Shown here: one piece after another, positions 6,717 through 24,320 of the stretch | How positions within the stretch are numbered: position 1 is the stretch's first letter | How the letters are laid out: each line of letters begins with the position of its first letter | Source of the DNA: an uncultured Alphaproteobacteria bacterium | GTDB taxonomy: Bacteria > Pseudomonadota > Alphaproteobacteria > Rs-D84 | Assembly: GCA_944389345.1 (NCBI GenBank) | Contig: CALXMA010000007.1 | Span: forward strand, 1-38,877 | DNA length: 38,877 nt | Direction: 5' to 3' | The notes under the pieces: model-generated | Databases searched by the model: none | What the model was told of the DNA's origin: nothing | The model's input: the letters and a program-made list of their open reading frames with translations, nothing else | Translations under genes and position numbers: made by a program

Positions 6717-6738
6717 TGACTGTAGGTAGAGAGAATTG

Positions 6739-9165
6739 ATGAAAAACAATTTGAAAATTTCAAGACTGGCGATAGTTTGTGTCTTGTGTACGGCGGTATC
6801 TGGGGCGTATGGTGCTTCTTCGGTTCGTGCATTGGGGGGCAGTGGTACGTACACCAGTGCGGCCAGTGCGACAACTGCGAATGATACATCAAATACGTCT
6901 GTGCGTGGCGGTTCGTTGCGTGTGACGCCGTCTTCTGGTGTTTCTGGGACGGGTACAACAATTAATGCGGGTACGACAACCAGTGGTCGTGTTGCGACAA
7001 CGCCGCGTTTATCAATTGGTCATTATTTGGGTGGCGGTACATCCGTCAGCGGGGGCAGTTCGTTGCGTCCGCAAAACCCGGGTACGTCGGGCGGTTCTTC
7101 GACCGGTGGTTCTTCGTCTGGTGGAATGGATCCAGGGGTTAGCGGGGCAATAATGGATTCTATTGATGATCTGCAACGTGATGTGGAATCGTTGTATGAT
7201 GCGGATACGAATCTGGCGGACCAGATGAAAACCAAACAGGATTTGTTATATCCGGCGGCCGATGGCTATATTATCATAGACGACAATAATGAAATCTTTG
7301 TTGATGTTGATGCGTTGGCGGAAACTATTGAGAGTGTCGCGGGCGAAGATGGACGCGAAGTTGAATTGGGTTCCGATAATGATAATTTGTTGTGGCGCTA
7401 TGTTGGGGATGGTTCTTGGAATATCTTGATTTCCAAGGATGAAATTACCGGACCCCAGGGGCCACAGGGTGAACCGGGCCAGGCGGCCAATATTGATGAA
7501 ATTATGGCCGAAATGAACGAGGTTATTGATGCCGCGGTCGAAGGTCTGGTTACCACGGAAGAACTGGAAACTAAATTGGCGCCGTATGCGACGAATGTTG
7601 CGGTACAGACCGCAATTGAAACGGCAACCGCTGATTTGGCCAGCAAAACGGATTTGTCCGAGTTGGCGACCAAGGAAGAATTGGCGGGGTATGTGTCTGA
7701 TGCGGACCTGACAAATTATCCGACCACCACACAAATGCAAGATTGGGTTGCACGTGGTCTGGAGGGCAAGGCGGACAAGGCGAAAACTTTGCAGGGGTAT
7801 GGGATTACCGATGCGTACACCAAAGACGAAGTTTATAACAAGGGCGAAGTCGATGGTATGGTTGAAGACTTGGTCGCGGGCGACGTAGAAGGTGCATTGG
7901 TTGGTAAAGAAGATAAATCAAACAAGATTCAGGAAATTACCGCGGAATCTACGGCCGATCAATATCCGTCCGCTGTTGCGGTTCGTACGGCATTAGATGC
8001 CAAGGCGGACAGCACGACGGTTGAACAAATTGAACAGAATGTTACCAATATTCAGCAAGATGTTACCGATGTTCAACAGGATATCACAGATGTTCAGCAA
8101 AATATTACAACCGTTCAAGAAAGTGTAGAAAATGTTACAACGAATGTAACAAATATTACTAATCAGGTTACAGAAATAACAAATCCGGAAACGGGTCTGG
8201 CCAGCAAGGTTGACGATGCGGTTGCCACCGCAGGCGAGGCGTCGACCAAGGTTGATGAAATGCAGGCGACCGTTGGCGAATTGGGTACGGCCGTGGGCGG
8301 ATTGGAAATGGTTGTTGGCGACGAAGAATCTGGATTGGTTGCCGACGTTGCGGGTGCGGTTGAAACCGCCAATGATGCATCGGCCAAGGTTGATGGAATG
8401 CAAACGACGGTGGGTGAATTAGAAACGTCTGTTGGGGCGTTGGAAACAACCGTTGGCGATGAAAATTCCGGCTTGGTCAAAGATGTTGCTGATGCGAATG
8501 CGGCGGCGACGGCGGCCCAAGAAGCCGCCGAAGAGGCGGTCGCCGGATTGGAAGGCAAGCAAGATGCATTGGGTTTTGTACCAGAAGATTCTGCAAATCG
8601 TGCGACGGCCATTACGGCAGAAAACCAGGCATCGGAAACAAACTATCCGTCTGTTGGCGCAATCGTTAATTGGACCAATGAAAAGATTAACGAATTGTCT
8701 GACACTGGTTTACCAGTGAATCCAGACAGTATTGGCAGTGGTGCAATCAATAACGATAAATTGGCGCCCGATGCGGTTACCGAAGACAAGATTGCCGATG
8801 GCGCGGTTGGTACCGATCAAATCAAAGATGATGCCGTAACGGCGGACCAGATTGCGCCCGATGCGGTTGGCAATGAACAGATTGCCGATGGTGCGGTAAC
8901 GACTGACAAGTTAGGTCAAGATGTCCAGACGGCATTGGATGGCAAGGTTGATGAATCTGAATTAGGTGCGTTGGCCAAGAAAAATCAGATTGCTGATGCG
9001 GATGTTGCGGATAACGCGGCCATCGCCAAGAGCAAGTTAGCCGAAGATGTCCAGGTGGCGTTGGATAATGCGGCCAATGCGGTCAGCATGACAGGGGCCA
9101 CACCGAACAGTGTTCTGGGGACAGGCGCCAGCGGTGAAAAAGTTTGGTATGCAATCGCAGAATAA
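6739..9165 (+). CDS. Secreted fibre-like protein 1 (coiled coil, decapeptide repeats)
   Basis: The protein is 808 aa with the ATG after a GGTAGAGAGA site. A signal peptide ends near SGAYGA. A Gly/Ser/Thr-rich stretch (to about residue 135) is followed by coiled coil, then a short collagen-like GPQGPQGEPGQ segment near residue 238. Tail-fibre-like elements follow: YGITDAYTKDEVYNKGEV, ITAESTADQYPSAVAVRTAL, and a heptad-rich V-T-N-I-Q-Q-D-V run. Near residues 673-727 there are five consecutive 10-residue repeats of the type DKIADGAVGT. The C-terminus ends with a Trp module (KVWYAIAE). It resembles phage tail fibres and trimeric adhesins but carries a Sec signal. No enzymatic motif is seen. I infer an extracellular, probably trimeric, fibre. 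Confidence 0.75.
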   Translation: MKNNLKISRLAIVCVLCTAVSGAYGASSVRALGGSGTYTSAASATTANDTSNTSVRGGSLRVTPSSGVSGTGTTINAGTTTSGRVATTPRLSIGHYLGGGTSVSGGSSLRPQNPGTSGGSSTGGSSSGGMDPGVSGAIMDSIDDLQRDVESLYDADTNLADQMKTKQDLLYPAADGYIIIDDNNEIFVDVDALAETIESVAGEDGREVELGSDNDNLLWRYVGDGSWNILISKDEITGPQGPQGEPGQAANIDEIMAEMNEVIDAAVEGLVTTEELETKLAPYATNVAVQTAIETATADLASKTDLSELATKEELAGYVSDADLTNYPTTTQMQDWVARGLEGKADKAKTLQGYGITDAYTKDEVYNKGEVDGMVEDLVAGDVEGALVGKEDKSNKIQEITAESTADQYPSAVAVRTALDAKADSTTVEQIEQNVTNIQQDVTDVQQDITDVQQNITTVQESVENVTTNVTNITNQVTEITNPETGLASKVDDAVATAGEASTKVDEMQATVGELGTAVGGLEMVVGDEESGLVADVAGAVETANDASAKVDGMQTTVGELETSVGALETTVGDENSGLVKDVADANAAATAAQEAAEEAVAGLEGKQDALGFVPEDSANRATAITAENQASETNYPSVGAIVNWTNEKINELSDTGLPVNPDSIGSGAINNDKLAPDAVTEDKIADGAVGTDQIKDDAVTADQIAPDAVGNEQIADGAVTTDKLGQDVQTALDGKVDESELGALAKKNQIADADVADNAAIAKSKLAEDVQVALDNAANAVSMTGATPNSVLGTGASGEKVWYAIAE

Positions 9166-9202
9166 GACGCGGTGAACATTCAGAAAGGAAAGGTAGGAAA
9201 GT

Positions 9203-10816
9203 ATGAAGAAAAGTAATATCGTTTTTTCTGGAATTATGGCAACCATTTTGATGGGGGCCGGGGCCGCGAATGCCGCGACTGTGATTGCCAGCCAGGGCTA
9301 TGTCGACAGAAAAGATGCCGAAATTACAACCAATCTGGAACAAAATTACGCCACCAAAGAATCTGTCAGCGCGTTGGATGATGCGATTAATAACCAAGAA
9401 ACTGGTTTGGCGGGTAAAGTAGACAGTTTGGATGATGCAATCAATAATCCTGATACCGGTTTGGCGAATACGGTTGGTGAATTGGAAACGGTTGTGAATG
9501 ACCCGGACAGTGGTTTGGCCAGCAAGGTTGATGATGCGGTTGCCACCGCGGGCGAGGCATCGACCAAGGTTGATGGAATGCAAACGACGGTGGGTGAATT
9601 AGAAACGTCTGTTGGGGCGTTGGAAACAACCGTTGGTGATGCGGAATCCGGATTGGTCAAAGATGTTGCCGATTTGGGTACAGAAGTAGATGGTTTGGGT
9701 GCAGATATCGGTAATACAGAATCTTTGGCGACAACGTCCAAGGAAGTTGTTGGTGCAATTAACGAAATCGATGCCGATTTGACCAATAAAGAAGATAAAT
9801 TAAACAAGATTCAGGAAATTACCGCGGAATCTACGGCCGATCAATATCCGTCGGCGGTTGCGGTTCGTACGGCTTTGGCGGACAAGGCCGATGCGTCCGA
9901 GGTTGCAAATATCACAAATAATATAACAGAGATTGAACAGACATTCCAAGAAATTACCACACCAGGTACTGGATTGGTTGATGTTGTTGGTGATGCCGAA
10001 GGTGGATTGGTCAAAGACGTTGCCGATTTACAGGGAACCGTTGGTAATGCGGAATCTGGATTGGTTGCCGACGTTGCGGGTGCGGTTGAAACCGCCAATG
10101 ATGCATCGGCCAAGGTTGAAGAATTGGGCAACACGGTTGGAGAACTAGACACGGTTGTTGGTGATGAAACATCTGGATTGGTTAAGGATGTTGCCGATTT
10201 GGGAACCGCGGTTGATACCGCCGAAGGTGAAATTGATGCGTTGCAGGGAACTGTTGCAGGCAAGGCAGATCAGTCTGCACTGACATCTGGGTTGGCATTA
10301 AAAGAAGATACCGCGAACAAGACCGCAAAGATTACCGAAGAAAACGAGAGTTCGGCCACTTTATTCCCGACAATTGGTGCAATTACCGAATGGACGGCCC
10401 AAGAAATTTCTGGGTTGTCTGAATTGCCACCGAATCCAGATTTGATGGAAGATGGGATTTTGCCGGGATCAAAATTGGAAAGTGGTGCCATCACGACCGA
10501 CAAGATTGCCGCGGATGCCGTAACGGCGGACAAGATTGCGGCCGGTGCGGTTGGAACAGAACAAATCGCCGATGGTGCGGTAACAGGGGATAAACTTGGT
10601 GAAGAACTGAGTGCAGAAATCGCTGGCAAGGCAGACGCCGAAAATGTCTATGCCAAAGATGAGACGTACACAAAAACAGAAACAGAAGACAAAATCAAGG
10701 AACTGGGGTTGCCCAGACCAACCGCAGATTGCGTTTCTGATTCAAACCTGTGTGTATTGTCTGTGAACGAAACGGGGAATCTGGCGTGGGTTAGTGTAAC
10801 AAGCCCGTTGGAATAA
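9203..10816 (+). CDS. Secreted fibre-like protein 2
   Basis: The protein is 537 aa with the start after AGAAAGGAAAGG. A signal peptide ends at ANA (residue about 24), and the mature protein starts close to the motif IASQGYVD, shared with proteins 3 and 4. The body has repeats of the type D-x(3)-GL-x-x-V that predict long coiled coil, plus the block ITAESTADQYPSAVAVRTAL shared with protein 1. Near residues 427-456 are decapeptide repeats such as DKIAADAVTA. The C-terminus has P-R-P-x3-C-x6-C-V-L and a late Trp, like protein 3. Long DNA stretches are identical to its neighbours, evidence of recent duplication or gene conversion. It is the second gene of the operon. Confidence 0.75.
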   Translation: MKKSNIVFSGIMATILMGAGAANAATVIASQGYVDRKDAEITTNLEQNYATKESVSALDDAINNQETGLAGKVDSLDDAINNPDTGLANTVGELETVVNDPDSGLASKVDDAVATAGEASTKVDGMQTTVGELETSVGALETTVGDAESGLVKDVADLGTEVDGLGADIGNTESLATTSKEVVGAINEIDADLTNKEDKLNKIQEITAESTADQYPSAVAVRTALADKADASEVANITNNITEIEQTFQEITTPGTGLVDVVGDAEGGLVKDVADLQGTVGNAESGLVADVAGAVETANDASAKVEELGNTVGELDTVVGDETSGLVKDVADLGTAVDTAEGEIDALQGTVAGKADQSALTSGLALKEDTANKTAKITEENESSATLFPTIGAITEWTAQEISGLSELPPNPDLMEDGILPGSKLESGAITTDKIAADAVTADKIAAGAVGTEQIADGAVTGDKLGEELSAEIAGKADAENVYAKDETYTKTETEDKIKELGLPRPTADCVSDSNLCVLSVNETGNLAWVSVTSPLE

Positions 10817-10857
10817 AAAACGATTAACGAAAAAAATACAAGGGAAGGAAAGAGAGA

Positions 10858-12030
10858 ATGAAAAAATTAACAGCAGGTATTTTTGCAACATTATTGGCCG
10901 TTGTTTCGGCGGGTGATGCGAACGCAAAAATCGCGTCCCAGGCCTATGTTGACCAAGAAGTTGGCGCGGTAGAAGCAACCGTGACCGAAGTTCAGGAAAA
11001 TGTTACCAACGTTACACAACAGGTTACACAGGTAACAGAACAAGTTGCAGAAATTACCACACCAGGTACTGGATTGGTTGATGTTGTTGGTGATGCCGAA
11101 GGTGGATTGGTCAAAGATGTTGCCGATTTGGGTACAGAAGTAGAAGGTTTGGGTACAGATATCGGTAATACAGAATCTTTGGCAACAACGTCCAAGGAAG
11201 TTGTTGGTGCAATCAATGAAGTCGAAGGTCGTGTTGATACCGCCGAAGGTGAAATTGATGCGTTGCAGTCAACTGTCGCAAGCAAGGCGAACACCTCAGA
11301 TTTGGGCGCGTTGGCGAAAAAGAATACGGTTGGCACAGCGGACATCGATGCCAAGGCCGTCACAACAGAAAAATTGGCCGATGGAATCGTCACATCTTTG
11401 GGCAAGGCAGACACCGCGTTACAGCAGGGGGCTTTGTCGGATTATCAGACCAAGACCCAGGCAGATGCCGCGTATGCTGTTAAGACATTAGAAGGTCAGG
11501 TTGGTGTCGTTTCTGCGGAAAATATGCATACAACGGCCAGCACGGTTGTAACCGCAATTGCCGAAGTTGCAGATGAAGTGGATGACGCACAACAGGCCGC
11601 GACCACTGCACAGGGTGAAGTGGATGCATTAGAAGCCGTGGTGAACAATGAAACAACAGGTTTGGCCGCCGCGCATACCGCAATTGACGCCGTTGAATCC
11701 AGTGTTAGTGGAATCCAGTCTGATTTGGCACAAATGCCGACAAATACAACAATTGGTACATTAGGCAATTTGCAGACGGAGGAAAAGACTAATCTGGTTG
11801 GTGCAATCAATGAGGTGAATACCAATGCAGATAACGCCGCCACCGCCGCCGCCGCCGCAGACAGCAAGGCAGCCGCCGCACAAAGTGCCGCGGATGCCGC
11901 CCAGGCAACCGCGAATGCGGCCATCCCAAAACCGGCGGGCAGTTGTGCAGAACCCGGTGCAACATGCGTGTTGGTGTATAACGGAACATCGTATTCTTGG
12001 GAAGATATTGCACGTGCAACAGAAGAATAA
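10858..12030 (+). CDS. Secreted fibre-like protein 3
   Basis: The protein is 390 aa with the start after GGAAGGAAAGAGAG. A signal peptide ends at ANA, followed by KIASQAYVD at the mature N-terminus. The middle is coiled coil with V-T-Q-V/N-V-T heptads. A cassette nearly identical at DNA level to protein 2 follows, containing TTPGTGLVDVVGDAEGGL. Toward the end there is an Ala-rich stretch (NAATAAAAADSKAAAAQSAA) typical of a continuous helix. The C-terminal module is P-K-P-x3-C-x6-C-V-L-V-Y-N-G-T-x-Y-S-W. It is the last of the three closely spaced fibre genes; a strong hairpin follows. Confidence 0.75.
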   Translation: MKKLTAGIFATLLAVVSAGDANAKIASQAYVDQEVGAVEATVTEVQENVTNVTQQVTQVTEQVAEITTPGTGLVDVVGDAEGGLVKDVADLGTEVEGLGTDIGNTESLATTSKEVVGAINEVEGRVDTAEGEIDALQSTVASKANTSDLGALAKKNTVGTADIDAKAVTTEKLADGIVTSLGKADTALQQGALSDYQTKTQADAAYAVKTLEGQVGVVSAENMHTTASTVVTAIAEVADEVDDAQQAATTAQGEVDALEAVVNNETTGLAAAHTAIDAVESSVSGIQSDLAQMPTNTTIGTLGNLQTEEKTNLVGAINEVNTNADNAATAAAAADSKAAAAQSAADAAQATANAAIPKPAGSCAEPGATCVLVYNGTSYSWEDIARATEE

Positions 12031-12053
12031 TATATGCGTGTGATACAGGAATT

Positions 12054-12089
12054 CGTGTGGTGTGTGGGATAATCCGCGCACACCACACG
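12054..12089 (+). terminator. Strong hairpin between fibre genes 3 and 4
   Basis: CGTGTGGTGTG at 12054-12064 pairs perfectly with CACACCACACG at 12079-12089, with further partial pairing inside. Only a short ATTTT follows. It may be a weak terminator or an RNA-processing and stability element. Confidence 0.5.
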
Positions 12090-12166
12090 GAACAGAATTT
12101 TGGGACAGAACGACGCAAAGAATTAGACTGGTACACAAAGAACATTTTTAGTTTAGGTAGTGCGAT

Positions 12167-13861
12167 ATGATGAGAGCAAAAGGTATTTTAGCGGTTTCTT
12201 TTTTGGCTATGTTGGCCGTTGGGCCGGCAATGGCCGAGATTGCATCCAAGGGCTATGTCGACGAGAAATTAGAGACCAAGGCCGATGCGTCCGCGCTGAG
12301 TGGATATGCAAAAACCACTGAATTGAATGCGGTCAGTGGACGTGTGACAACGGCACAAGATACCGCAGATGCCGCGAAAGAGGCCGCAGAGAATGCCCAG
12401 ACGACCGCAAATACTAAGGTTACCGCAAATGCCGGAATAACCGGGGCAACGCATACCAAAATTACCTATGATTCCAAGGGGTTGGTGACCGCGGGGACGG
12501 ATTTGACCGCGAATGATATCCCAACGATTCCATCGTCCAAGGTTTCGGGATTGGGGTCTTTGGCAACAAAAAGTTCTGTGGGTACAAACGATATCGCAAA
12601 TGGCGCCGTGACATCGGCCAAGTTGGGCGAAGATGTCCAGGCCGCATTAGAACAGGCGGGCAGTGCCGTTCAGCCGGGCAATATGCCGGTTGCCACAGGC
12701 AGTGCCGTTGGTGGTGTTAAGTCGGGTGCTGATATTACCGTTGCCGCAGATGGTGCCGTTACCGTAAACAGTGCGACAAATGCCGATCATGCGACCAGTG
12801 CCGACAGCGCAACAAACGCAACAAATGCGACAAACGCTACAAACGCTGACCATGCGGATACCGCTGATACTGCGACAAATGCGACAAACGCAACGAATGC
12901 TACGAACGCCACAAACGCGACCAAGGCGACCCAGGACGCGGATGGCAATGTTATTACGGATACGTATGCAACCAAAACGGAATTAGGTGCCAAGGCGAAC
13001 ACCGCAGATTTGGCCGAAGTTGCGACAACGGGGTCTTATGATGATTTGGCAAATAAACCAACGATTCCGACCGTTAATAATGCAACGTTGACAATTCAGC
13101 GCAATGGAACCCAGGTTGACACGTTTACCGCAAATGCGTCTGCGAATAAGACAATTAATATAACTGTGCCGACCAAGACCAGTGAATTGTCTAATGACAG
13201 TGGTTTTGCAACAACAACCCAGGTGAATGCACGTGTTGCCACCGCCCAGGGATCTGGTAATGCGAACAAGGCCGTCGTTACTAATGCCAGTGGTAATATC
13301 ACAACGGGTACTATTGCGTCGGGGATGATTGCAGATGGTGCCGTGACGTCGGCGAAAATTGCAGATGGCACGATTACGGCAAATGATATCGCAAACGGTA
13401 CTATTACGTCCGGAAAATTGGCCACGGCGGTTCAGTCTGCGTTGACCAGTGCCGGGACCGCGGTACAGCCGGATGATTTGGCCGAAGTTGCAACAACGGG
13501 GTCTTATAACGATTTGGCCGACAAGCCGACAATTCCGAAACAGATTACCGTGGATTCTGCATTAAGTTCGACCAGTACGAACCCGGTTCAGAACAAGGTT
13601 ATTAATACTGCGTTGGCGGGCAAGTTGTCCACCACGGGAACCGCCGCGCGTGCGACCGCCGATGCGTCGGGTAATAATATCGTCAATACTTATGCGACCA
13701 AGTCCCAGATAACGGCGTTGGACAGTTCGTCCACCGGAACAGGGGCCGTGGTTACGGCGGTATCACAGACCGATGGTAAGGTGTCTGTGACCAAGGGGAA
13801 TGTAAAGATTCCTGTGGGTGGTGAAAATGCCACGTCGTATGCAACGATATGGGTTCAATAG
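12167..13861 (+). CDS. Secreted fibre-like protein 4 (tail-fibre type)
   Basis: The protein is 564 aa; a second ATG at 12170 is equally possible. A signal peptide ends at AMA, followed by EIASKGYVDEK, matching the mature N-termini of proteins 2 and 3. Elements familiar from phage tail fibres follow: ITGATHTKITYDSKGLVTAG, NDIPTIPSSKVSG, a run of Asn-Ala-Thr tripeptides, two copies of LAEVATTGSYxDLAxKPTIP, PTKTSELSNDSGF, and SALSSTSTNPVQNKVIN. Decapeptide repeats such as KIADGTITAN occur in the middle. It ends YATIWVQ, again with a late Trp. It lies 136 bp from gene 3 behind a hairpin, so it may be transcribed separately. No chaperone, tail or capsid genes are nearby. Confidence 0.75.
   Translation: MMRAKGILAVSFLAMLAVGPAMAEIASKGYVDEKLETKADASALSGYAKTTELNAVSGRVTTAQDTADAAKEAAENAQTTANTKVTANAGITGATHTKITYDSKGLVTAGTDLTANDIPTIPSSKVSGLGSLATKSSVGTNDIANGAVTSAKLGEDVQAALEQAGSAVQPGNMPVATGSAVGGVKSGADITVAADGAVTVNSATNADHATSADSATNATNATNATNADHADTADTATNATNATNATNATNATKATQDADGNVITDTYATKTELGAKANTADLAEVATTGSYDDLANKPTIPTVNNATLTIQRNGTQVDTFTANASANKTINITVPTKTSELSNDSGFATTTQVNARVATAQGSGNANKAVVTNASGNITTGTIASGMIADGAVTSAKIADGTITANDIANGTITSGKLATAVQSALTSAGTAVQPDDLAEVATTGSYNDLADKPTIPKQITVDSALSSTSTNPVQNKVINTALAGKLSTTGTAARATADASGNNIVNTYATKSQITALDSSSTGTGAVVTAVSQTDGKVSVTKGNVKIPVGGENATSYATIWVQ
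12771..12935 (+). repeat. 9-bp period Asn-Ala-Thr tandem repeat inside fibre gene 4
   Basis: DNA units like AACGCAACA repeat with small variations and encode (Asn-Ala-Thr)n, broken once by Asp-His-Ala-Asp. The 9-bp period keeps the frame whatever the copy number. Confidence 0.7.
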
Positions 13862-23556: not shown

Positions 23557-23582
23557 AAACCGCCGTTTCGGCGGTTTTATTT
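23557..23582 (+). terminator. Intrinsic terminator of the acyl-CoA synthetase gene
   Basis: AAACCGCC, loop GTTTC, GGCGGTTT, then TATTT. This 26-bp sequence is repeated exactly at 24295-24320. Confidence 0.85.
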
Positions 23583-23584
23583 GT

Positions 23585-23613
23585 TTGCCTTTGTGTTTTT
23601 TATTAACTATAAT
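23585..23613 (+). promoter_or_regulatory. Promoter of the structured RNA
   Basis: TTGCCT, 17 bp, TATAAT (perfect -10). The predicted start is near 23620. It lies directly after the preceding terminator. Confidence 0.6.
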
Positions 23614-23619
23614 CTGATG

Positions 23620-23851
23620 TGAATTCACAGGGGTGTGGGTTCAGGGACTTAAGAAATCCCATAGAATATCGGCGCGATTGTTGTCGTGTCGTAATCCTTG
23701 CATCGCATACGTTTGGTATGCGGTGGTATTCCCCGTATTAAGTCGGGGAGCCGTCGGTTATACAACAGGATTTATTCTGAAAACCGATGGGGTCATTATA
23801 TTCTATGATTTTCTTAACTCCCCGACCGCCAGATTCCTTTGGCGGTTTTTG
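23620..23851 (+). ncRNA. Candidate structured leader RNA / attenuator, unknown family
   Basis: There is no plausible protein here, but dense pairing is visible. A long-range stem joins 23644-23669 to 23798-23822: GGGA/TCCC, TTAAGAAA/TTTCTTAA and ATAGAATAT/ATATTCTAT. Inside are hairpins at 23673-23688 (weak), 23701-23725 (10 bp), 23729-23750 (TTCCCCG/CGGGGAG with one G-U), and 23751-23790 (9 bp, with an inner 5-bp stem). An intrinsic terminator follows at 23825-23850. GTCGGGGAG (23742-23750) can instead pair perfectly with CTCCCCGAC (23818-23826). That would break hairpin 3 and the base of both the long stem and the terminator, as in riboswitches. Only about 28 nt separate the terminator from the next gene, so that gene probably depends on read-through. 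It does not fit 6S, tmRNA, SRP or RNase P RNA. A miniature inverted-repeat element is the main alternative. Confidence 0.5.
23825..23850 (+). terminator. Terminator at the end of the structured RNA
   Basis: ACCGCCA and TGGCGGT form a 7-bp stem with an 8-nt loop, followed by TTTTT. Its base overlaps the alternative pairing partner CTCCCCGAC. Confidence 0.75.
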
Positions 23852-23879
23852 TTTAATCAAAAAACAAGGGGAATAAGAA

Positions 23880-24284
23880 ATGAAAAAAATATTTTTGGGG
23901 GCTGTTGGGGTGGCCTTGATTTTTGCCGGGTCGGAACCGGCGTATGCGATAATTGGTCAATGTTCGGTCGAAGACATGCAAAGATGTATGGATATGGATG
24001 CGGTATGTCTTGCAGAAAATTGTGTTTTTGCGTGTTATACGTGGACATTGGATTTTACCACGTGTGGTTGTAAAAGAAAGACTGTACCTGTTGAGGGTTC
24101 CACCGTGTGTGCGGCAAATTGCTATGGCGATGGCATCAATTGTCAATCTTGTCCGTCGGCGTATGGGGTTGCGGGAAATTCGCCACAGGGCAGTACTAGT
24201 GTGTCTGATTGCTATATCCCGGCGGGGACGACGGGGTCTGATTCAACGGGGACATTTATAATAACGTCAGATTGCCATTACTGA
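23880..24284 (+). CDS. Small Cys-rich secreted protein
   Basis: The protein is 134 aa with AAGGGGAAT before the ATG. A signal peptide (MKKIFLGAVGVALIFAG, cut after AYA) gives a mature protein of about 112 aa with 13 Cys, as in C-x-C, C-x3-C and C-x2-C pairs. This suggests a disulfide-rich exported protein. The end, DCYIPAGTTGSDSTGTF followed by a last Cys three residues from the terminus, looks like a repeated extracellular module. I do not recognise a named family. It directly follows the structured RNA and its terminator, with no visible promoter of its own, so expression likely depends on read-through. A terminator follows it. Confidence 0.65.
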   Translation: MKKIFLGAVGVALIFAGSEPAYAIIGQCSVEDMQRCMDMDAVCLAENCVFACYTWTLDFTTCGCKRKTVPVEGSTVCAANCYGDGINCQSCPSAYGVAGNSPQGSTSVSDCYIPAGTTGSDSTGTFIITSDCHY

Positions 24285-24294
24285 TTGTGTCAAA

Positions 24295-24320
24295 AAACCG
24301 CCGTTTCGGCGGTTTTATTT
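24295..24320 (+). terminator. Intrinsic terminator after the Cys-rich gene
   Basis: It is identical over 26 bp to the terminator at 23557-23582. Confidence 0.85.

Follow-up and report, generated by a model that had tools for sequence, protein, structure and literature searches.

The window analyzed here, the whole stretch of 38,877 nt from an uncultured alphaproteobacterium of the order Rs-D84, contains a sigma-70-like promoter, a structured leader and an intrinsic terminator directly 5' of a gene encoding a Cys-rich protein with a signal peptide (Table 1). These features had all been reported in the initial annotation and they hold up: the promoter can be read directly from the sequence, the terminator lies at the proposed site, and the gene starts soon after it, which leaves scant room for a second promoter. 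The leader-gene unit is flanked by an exact 26-bp direct repeat (AAACCGCCGTTTCGGCGGTTTTATTT; 23557-23582 and 24295-24320), each copy of which is a terminator. Elsewhere in the window, four successive long ORFs (6736-13861) with signal peptides and repeated coiled segments (VGELETVVGDEESGLVADVAGAVETANDAS...) resemble tandem-duplicated surface proteins of a trimeric-autotransporter-like type.

Table 1. Features of the leader-gene unit in the window.
Feature	Positions	Strand	Basis or remark
Sigma-70-like promoter, TTGCCT-17-TATAAT	23585-23613	+	Read from sequence; TTGCCT 23585-23590, TATAAT 23608-23613
5' hairpin P0 (UGAAUUCACA-GGGG-UGUGGGUUCA)	23620-23643	+	Fold; seen in copies of the same order
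Core hairpin hp2, GGGA-CUUAAGAAA-UCCC	23644-23660	+	Covarying stem
PK1 5' strand UUAAGAAA (hp2 loop; partner 23810-23817)	23649-23656	+	
PK2 5' strand AUAGAAUAU (partner is the P8 loop, 23798-23806)	23661-23669	+	
Variable region, two local hairpins	23670-23726	+	Fold; poor conservation
Hairpin 3, UUCCCCG...CGGGGAG, competitor of the core helix	23729-23750	+	Fold; comparison with copies
P_B 5' strand GUCGGGGAG	23742-23750	+	Covariation
P7 arm, conserved internal loop UAUACAACA/GAAA	23751-23790	+	Covariation; loop motif
P8 hairpin GGUCAU/AUGAUU, bearing the PK2 loop	23791-23810	+	97.5% of cells paired
PK2 3' strand AUAUUCUAU (P8 loop)	23798-23806	+	
PK1 3' strand UUUCUUAA	23810-23817	+	
P_B 3' strand CUCCCCGAC; last nucleotides double as terminator 5' arm	23818-23826	+	Covariation
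Intrinsic terminator ACCGCCA...UGGCGGU-UUUUU	23825-23851	+	Sequence; stem 23825-23846, then U run
Downstream gene, 134-aa Cys-rich protein with signal peptide	23880-24284	+	ORF
Post-gene terminator	24295-24320	+	Exact 26-bp copy of 23557-23582

The minimum free energy of the leader RNA is -103.2 kcal/mol, compared with -64.5 +/- 4.6 kcal/mol for dinucleotide shuffles (z = -8.3), and none of the 200 shuffles was equally stable. This fold pairs positions 23644-23669 with 23798-23822, which had been interpreted as a long stem in three segments. The pairing does exist at these positions, but it is composed of two pseudoknots formed with local hairpins (PK1 and PK2) and of a competing interaction between the GGGA of hairpin hp2 and the UCCC of the P_B strand. 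This GGGA has two partners: the local UCCC (23657-23660) or the UCCC of core helix P_B.

A BLAST search with the element returned 14 matches (about 11-12 separate copies) in its own 0.89-Mb genome and matches in 39 of the 59 genomes searched. We built a covariance model, R1, on the 3' domain only, using 34 sequences from this order and the structure P_B, P7 and P8. R1 detected 15 copies in this genome, dispersed singly, and what had been described as the leader of a single gene is one of about 15 such copies. Of 201 genomes belonging to the order, 174 had matches to R1, as many as 21 being counted in a single genome; in a sample of 385 genomes of the class, 28 had matches. Those relatives with the element that bear names are MAGs from gut and termite sources, Candidatus Enterousia among them, and members of the GTDB order Rs-D84 are described as likely symbionts or parasites with reduced genomes (PMC12306168). 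Loci were chosen by model score, and all the results presented here derive from comparative sequence analysis.

In nearly all loci, the copies present a fixed orientation and are located just 5' of the start codon. In 40 of 66 copies, a TATAAT-like -10 box (at least 5/6 positions) lies at an almost constant spacing from the first core hairpin (-35 to -37). The leader-gene unit is missing between the same two genes in one relative (G032) and looks decayed in another (G027). Flanking repeats were searched at 49 copies and none was general: the longest shared flanking words were similar to those of controls, except for the two identical terminators of the window copy, and this bracketing by a 26-bp repeat had no second case among the 49 units tested. 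A plasmid collection searched with the window unit yielded no match, and a viral scan with a window-type pattern yielded one match, unlike the element. In one genome (G171; L284/L285), two leaders on opposite strands are placed back to back with about 1 kb between them, and the same layout was observed in G111 and G163.

The covariation in homologues by which the initial annotation proposed to judge the structure was found, and it is strong. In the alignment of the 3' domain, 90.6% of cells are paired and 13 pairs changed on both sides; the cells changed on both sides number 69 versus 20 in shuffles (0/500 shuffles reached this value), and pairing falls to 31-51% when the partner strands are slid. 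On this comparative evidence, P_B (GUCGGGGAG/CUCCCCGAC) is the conserved closing helix and no rare alternative. All eight outer pairs of P7 (8/8) show changes on both sides, and the internal loop UAUACAACA/GAAA forms a conserved unpaired motif inside this variable stem, although the motif varies between groups.

Nearly every copy also presents a hairpin of the form GGGn-loop-nCCC upstream of the core. The stem of this hairpin, hp2, covaries among copies (GGGA/UCCC, GGGU/ACCC, GGAC/GUCC, GAGG/CCUC and GGUG/CACC). Across the family, PK1 pairs the hp2 loop with the strand immediately 5' of the P_B 3' strand, and PK2 pairs the segment 3' of hp2 with the P8 loop. The sequence of PK2 is fully variable among copies and yet its complementarity is retained: with hp2 selected independently of PK2, a PK2 helix reaching 7 bp or more was seen at 89% of the loci of this order, at 85% of those from other Alphaproteobacteria and, for sRNA-Xcc1 (Rfam family RF02221, see below), at 75%, relative to 8-10% when partners were swapped between genomes. 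Figures of 100% pairing from another count are inflated by selection and were excluded as pairing evidence. Since automatic parsing of P8 is noisy, our conclusions are drawn from the anchored tests of PK2, terminator and hairpin 3 and from the ribosome-binding-site tests. These results indicate that the conserved core is a three-way junction, in which P_B closes P7 and P8 and which is tied to the 5' end by PK1 and PK2. Two divergent copies from one genome (L051 and L052; about 30 bits) present another P_B (GGUCAGGAGG/CCUCCUGACC) and another P7, and still precede secreted Cys-rich proteins.

When the whole of Rfam was searched at gathering thresholds, only a tRNA was matched in the window. With relaxed thresholds, positions 23742-23834 matched sRNA-Xcc1 (RF02221) at 35.2 bits (E = 1e-4), short of the gathering score of 53, and further copies scored 30-40 bits. 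The alignment of RF02221 to the window uses the GUCGGGGAG/CUCCCCGAC helix, and the window element shares the structure of the family: a closing helix, an arm with an AUACAA loop and a second hairpin. The weak matches to CRISPR-DR14, tracrRNA, mir-308 and SgrS that also appeared at relaxed thresholds are at chance level. In the reverse search, R1 recovered 26 sRNA-Xcc1 loci at E < 0.01 and at the correct position. Furthermore, hp2, PK1 and PK2 are also present upstream at sRNA-Xcc1 loci and are absent from the 87-nt Rfam model. Because the matches run both ways and the same three elements lie upstream, comparison indicates that the window element is homologous to sRNA-Xcc1 despite missing the RF02221 cut-off, as a distant and larger relative. 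The leader is not undescribed in the strict sense, as had been claimed; the known family that it matches is a remote one. Since both pseudoknots recur upstream of it, the sRNA-Xcc1 of Rfam appears to be merely the 3' third of a cis leader.

We searched 299 proteobacterial genomes with RF02221 and found matches in 48 of them, with up to nine copies each; the core pattern of sRNA-Xcc1 was found in at least 120 viral contigs. This RNA has been treated as a trans-acting sRNA of ~88 nt (PMC2996969, PMC12189769); Northern analysis with end mapping (PMC2996969) and, in Xylella, RNA-seq (PMC12189769) detected it as a discrete RNA. The discrete ~88-nt RNA (PMC2996969) is compatible with either processing or a role in trans. 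In Xanthomonas, sRNA-Xcc1 is located upstream of symE in integron cassettes (PMC12444791), and an integron gene cassette is also the setting given in its original description. Our literature search found no account of this RNA as a cis switch. We considered that it might be a tRNA-like RNA processed by RNase P and rejected this candidate: RCC(A) lies directly 3' of the closing helix in 3 of 60 sRNA-Xcc1 loci and is not conserved. At sRNA-Xcc1 loci (L206-L246), the stretch between the 5' domain and P_B holds an extra conserved hairpin with a U run behind it (CCGCACCCG..UGCGGUUUUUUGUGCC), which resembles an internal terminator.

The family appears to be coupled to two different expression platforms. 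P_B is immediately succeeded by a terminator in 58 of the 66 copies of this order, in 17 of the 26 from other Alphaproteobacteria and in 0 of 60 sRNA-Xcc1 loci (random positions: 0.4-3.5%). In most copies, the 5' arm of the terminator and the P_B 3' strand have 3-4 nt in common. Hairpin 3, which contains the complement of the P_B 5' strand, is found in 95% of the copies of this order versus 21% of shuffles and in 88% versus 14% for other Alphaproteobacteria; it is weak at sRNA-Xcc1 loci (38% versus 24%). The exclusive pairings that had been proposed for GUCGGGGAG recur throughout the family, together with the overlap, but the partner CUCCCCGAC belongs to a conserved helix rather than to an alternative one. 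At sRNA-Xcc1 loci, the 30 nt preceding the start codon contain a repeat of the PK2 strand, 7 nt or longer, in 30% of cases versus 1% with swapped partners. Based on this repeat, the P8 loop can pair with the PK2 5' strand or, in about a third of sRNA-Xcc1 loci, with the ribosome-binding site. For instance, the leader before the antirepressor gene ant of coliphage Rac-SA53 presents UUACAAG upstream, CUUGUAG in the loop and UACAAG 8 nt before the start. No excess of ribosome-binding-site pairing by the loop was detected in the terminator groups (2% versus 1.9% swapped). In a more divergent copy (L030), a hairpin (CAUCCUUUUG...CAAAAGGAUG) seemingly takes the place of the terminator and would mask the ribosome-binding site.

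The genes located behind the leader are mostly accessory, with no pathway in common. The ~15 leader-preceded genes of this genome encode mostly secreted or surface proteins. Across the order, the downstream genes encode Cys-rich proteins and polymorphic autotransporters (Chlam_PMP, beta helix, YadA anchor), some of them long, and a simple, rough rule for calling signal peptides identified signal-peptide-like starts in 56 of 65 downstream proteins and, applied in the same way to neighbours, in 28 of 88. The corresponding genes encode glycosyltransferases, outer-membrane proteins, DNA methyltransferases and a PD-(D/E)XK protein in other Alphaproteobacteria, and Rha, BRO, KilA-N and P22 antirepressors, SymE and a restriction subunit at sRNA-Xcc1 loci. 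One autotransporter-like family with an unusual conserved start (MSNTKHLADLLKVCSILPALAVMPAMA) recurs downstream of the leader in numerous genomes of this genus (L059, L062, L070-L077, L079, L081).

We consider it probable that the element belongs to a cis-acting leader family that includes the truncated sRNA-Xcc1, with a pseudoknotted core acting as an attenuator here and on translation at sRNA-Xcc1 and phage loci. The existence of the family, its core helices, both pseudoknots, the terminator overlap, the ribosome-binding-site mimicry and the position before accessory genes are those parts of this explanation that sequence comparison shows. The window element itself is most likely a conformational attenuator that would act like the C4 antisense RNA of phages, but through termination. 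When the core folds, P_B would retain the 3-4 nt that it shares with the terminator arm (AC(C)), leaving a weaker terminator, and read-through would turn the gene on. Were hairpin 3 the first to sequester the P_B 5' strand (GUCGGGG), P_B would not form, the full terminator would fold and the gene would be off, with a short RNA of ~230 nt as the sole product. As the initial annotation proposed, read-through likely controls the downstream gene; we infer the direction of the switch, the co-transcriptional competition and read-through as the gene's sole means of expression. At sRNA-Xcc1 and phage loci, the same core would act on translation: PK2 would hold the P8 loop, an anti-ribosome-binding-site, and its opening would free the loop to pair with the ribosome-binding site. 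Both platforms would then follow one logic.

The energies computed for the window copy are consistent with such a switch. The nested fold is at -103.2 kcal/mol and the P_B state at -89.1 kcal/mol before adding PK1 and PK2, which suggests that the two states may be close enough for switching, the energies of the pseudoknots being uncertain estimates. The 9-bp terminator stem is at -12.8 kcal/mol versus -7.8 kcal/mol for the 7-bp stem with AC kept by P_B. This 7-bp stem would persist with P_B formed, which speaks against our explanation in that the effect of the overlap on terminator strength may be modest. Likewise, only about one sRNA-Xcc1 locus in three shows significant mimicry, the competitor hairpin is weak at these loci, and the literature describes sRNA-Xcc1 as acting in trans (PMC2996969, PMC12189769).

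Alternatively, the element could be mainly a trans-acting small RNA, whose terminator ends the RNA, whose P8 and other loops regulate other mRNAs and whose proximity to a gene is incidental. It possesses its own promoter and terminator, and the published detections of sRNA-Xcc1 as a discrete ~88-nt RNA (PMC2996969; PMC12189769 for Xylella) would agree with this role. We nevertheless regard it as improbable: the orientation is fixed just before the start codon at nearly all loci, the PK2/P8 sequence varies from one paralogue to the next and fits the partner strand within its own copy, and many sRNA-Xcc1 loci match the ribosome-binding site of their own gene, which points to self-regulation. It is also doubtful that the leader is a ligand-sensing riboswitch, in which the P7 internal loop (UAUACAACA/GAAA) would bind a small molecule and stabilize the pseudoknotted core. 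The downstream genes lack a common pathway, the P7 motif differs between groups and no ligand is known, even though a conserved unpaired motif within a variable stem and a single core serving two platforms are both in line with this possibility.

We give very little credence to processive antitermination of the HK022 put/EAR type, by which the folded RNA would make RNA polymerase ignore the terminator; the placement of a structured RNA directly before a terminator and surface-protein genes, some of them long, would fit, but this leaves unexplained the sRNA-Xcc1 loci, with their ribosome-binding-site mimicry and no following terminator. Finally, RNA and gene could move together as a dispersed mobile unit (MITE or cassette), the fold serving mobility, as might be suggested by the ~15 dispersed copies, the corresponding site at which G032 lacks the unit and G027 has one that looks decayed, the 26-bp repeat flanking the window copy and the integron cassettes that carry sRNA-Xcc1 (PMC12444791). 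Dispersed copies with target duplications had been named in the initial annotation as the mark of a MITE. The copies are indeed dispersed, but we found no general target duplication or flanking repeat at 49 copies, and they share a single orientation and a constant placement with respect to the promoter and the start codon, which makes a MITE unlikely. The genes behind the conserved RNA are, moreover, non-homologous, and pairing is kept with G-U pairs on the RNA strand; mobility is in our view a very remote explanation.

Returning to the cis-acting leader family, we lean, by a narrow balance, towards an overlooked class of double-pseudoknot switches on phage and accessory genes across Proteobacteria, missed because its catalogue entry covers just the 3' third, under the label of a trans-acting sRNA. 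A single core would serve a terminator or a ribosome-binding-site platform, and with ~20 copies per genome in some reduced gut Alphaproteobacteria it would control a variable secretome. An Rfam family known as a trans-acting virulence sRNA would be reassigned as the 3' part of a probable cis switch with a testable mechanism. In bacteria of this kind, whose genomes are close to or below 1 Mb and which are thought to live as symbionts or parasites, many genes for surface and secreted proteins would be under one RNA design, which would offer a handle on how such bacteria interact with their partners. The coliphage versions make bench tests feasible in E. coli.

Among known systems, sRNA-Xcc1 shares with the window element the 3' domain P_B/P7/P8, a similar internal loop, its multiple copies and its location before accessory genes. 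It differs by having no terminator and by mimicking, at many loci, the PK2 strand at the ribosome-binding site, whereas the window element has a terminator and a secreted-protein gene. The C4 antisense RNA of phages P1 and P7 is encoded in a leader, and its loops are complementary to the ribosome-binding region of the next gene on the same transcript. Leaders of the sRNA-Xcc1 type likewise precede phage antirepressor genes, but C4 (RF01695) has another architecture, its model, run at gathering, matched neither the window nor any of 20 sRNA-Xcc1 loci, and the window copy uses a terminator instead of a ribosome-binding site. The HK022 put/EAR elements are also structured RNAs before the terminators of accessory or surface genes; they gave no match here, and the sRNA-Xcc1 part of the leader family has no terminator. 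One core with different expression platforms is typical of riboswitches. The leader family resembles riboswitches and transcription attenuators in its conserved core, its mutually exclusive helices and its alternative expression platforms, and it differs from them in having no known ligand and target genes that share no pathway.
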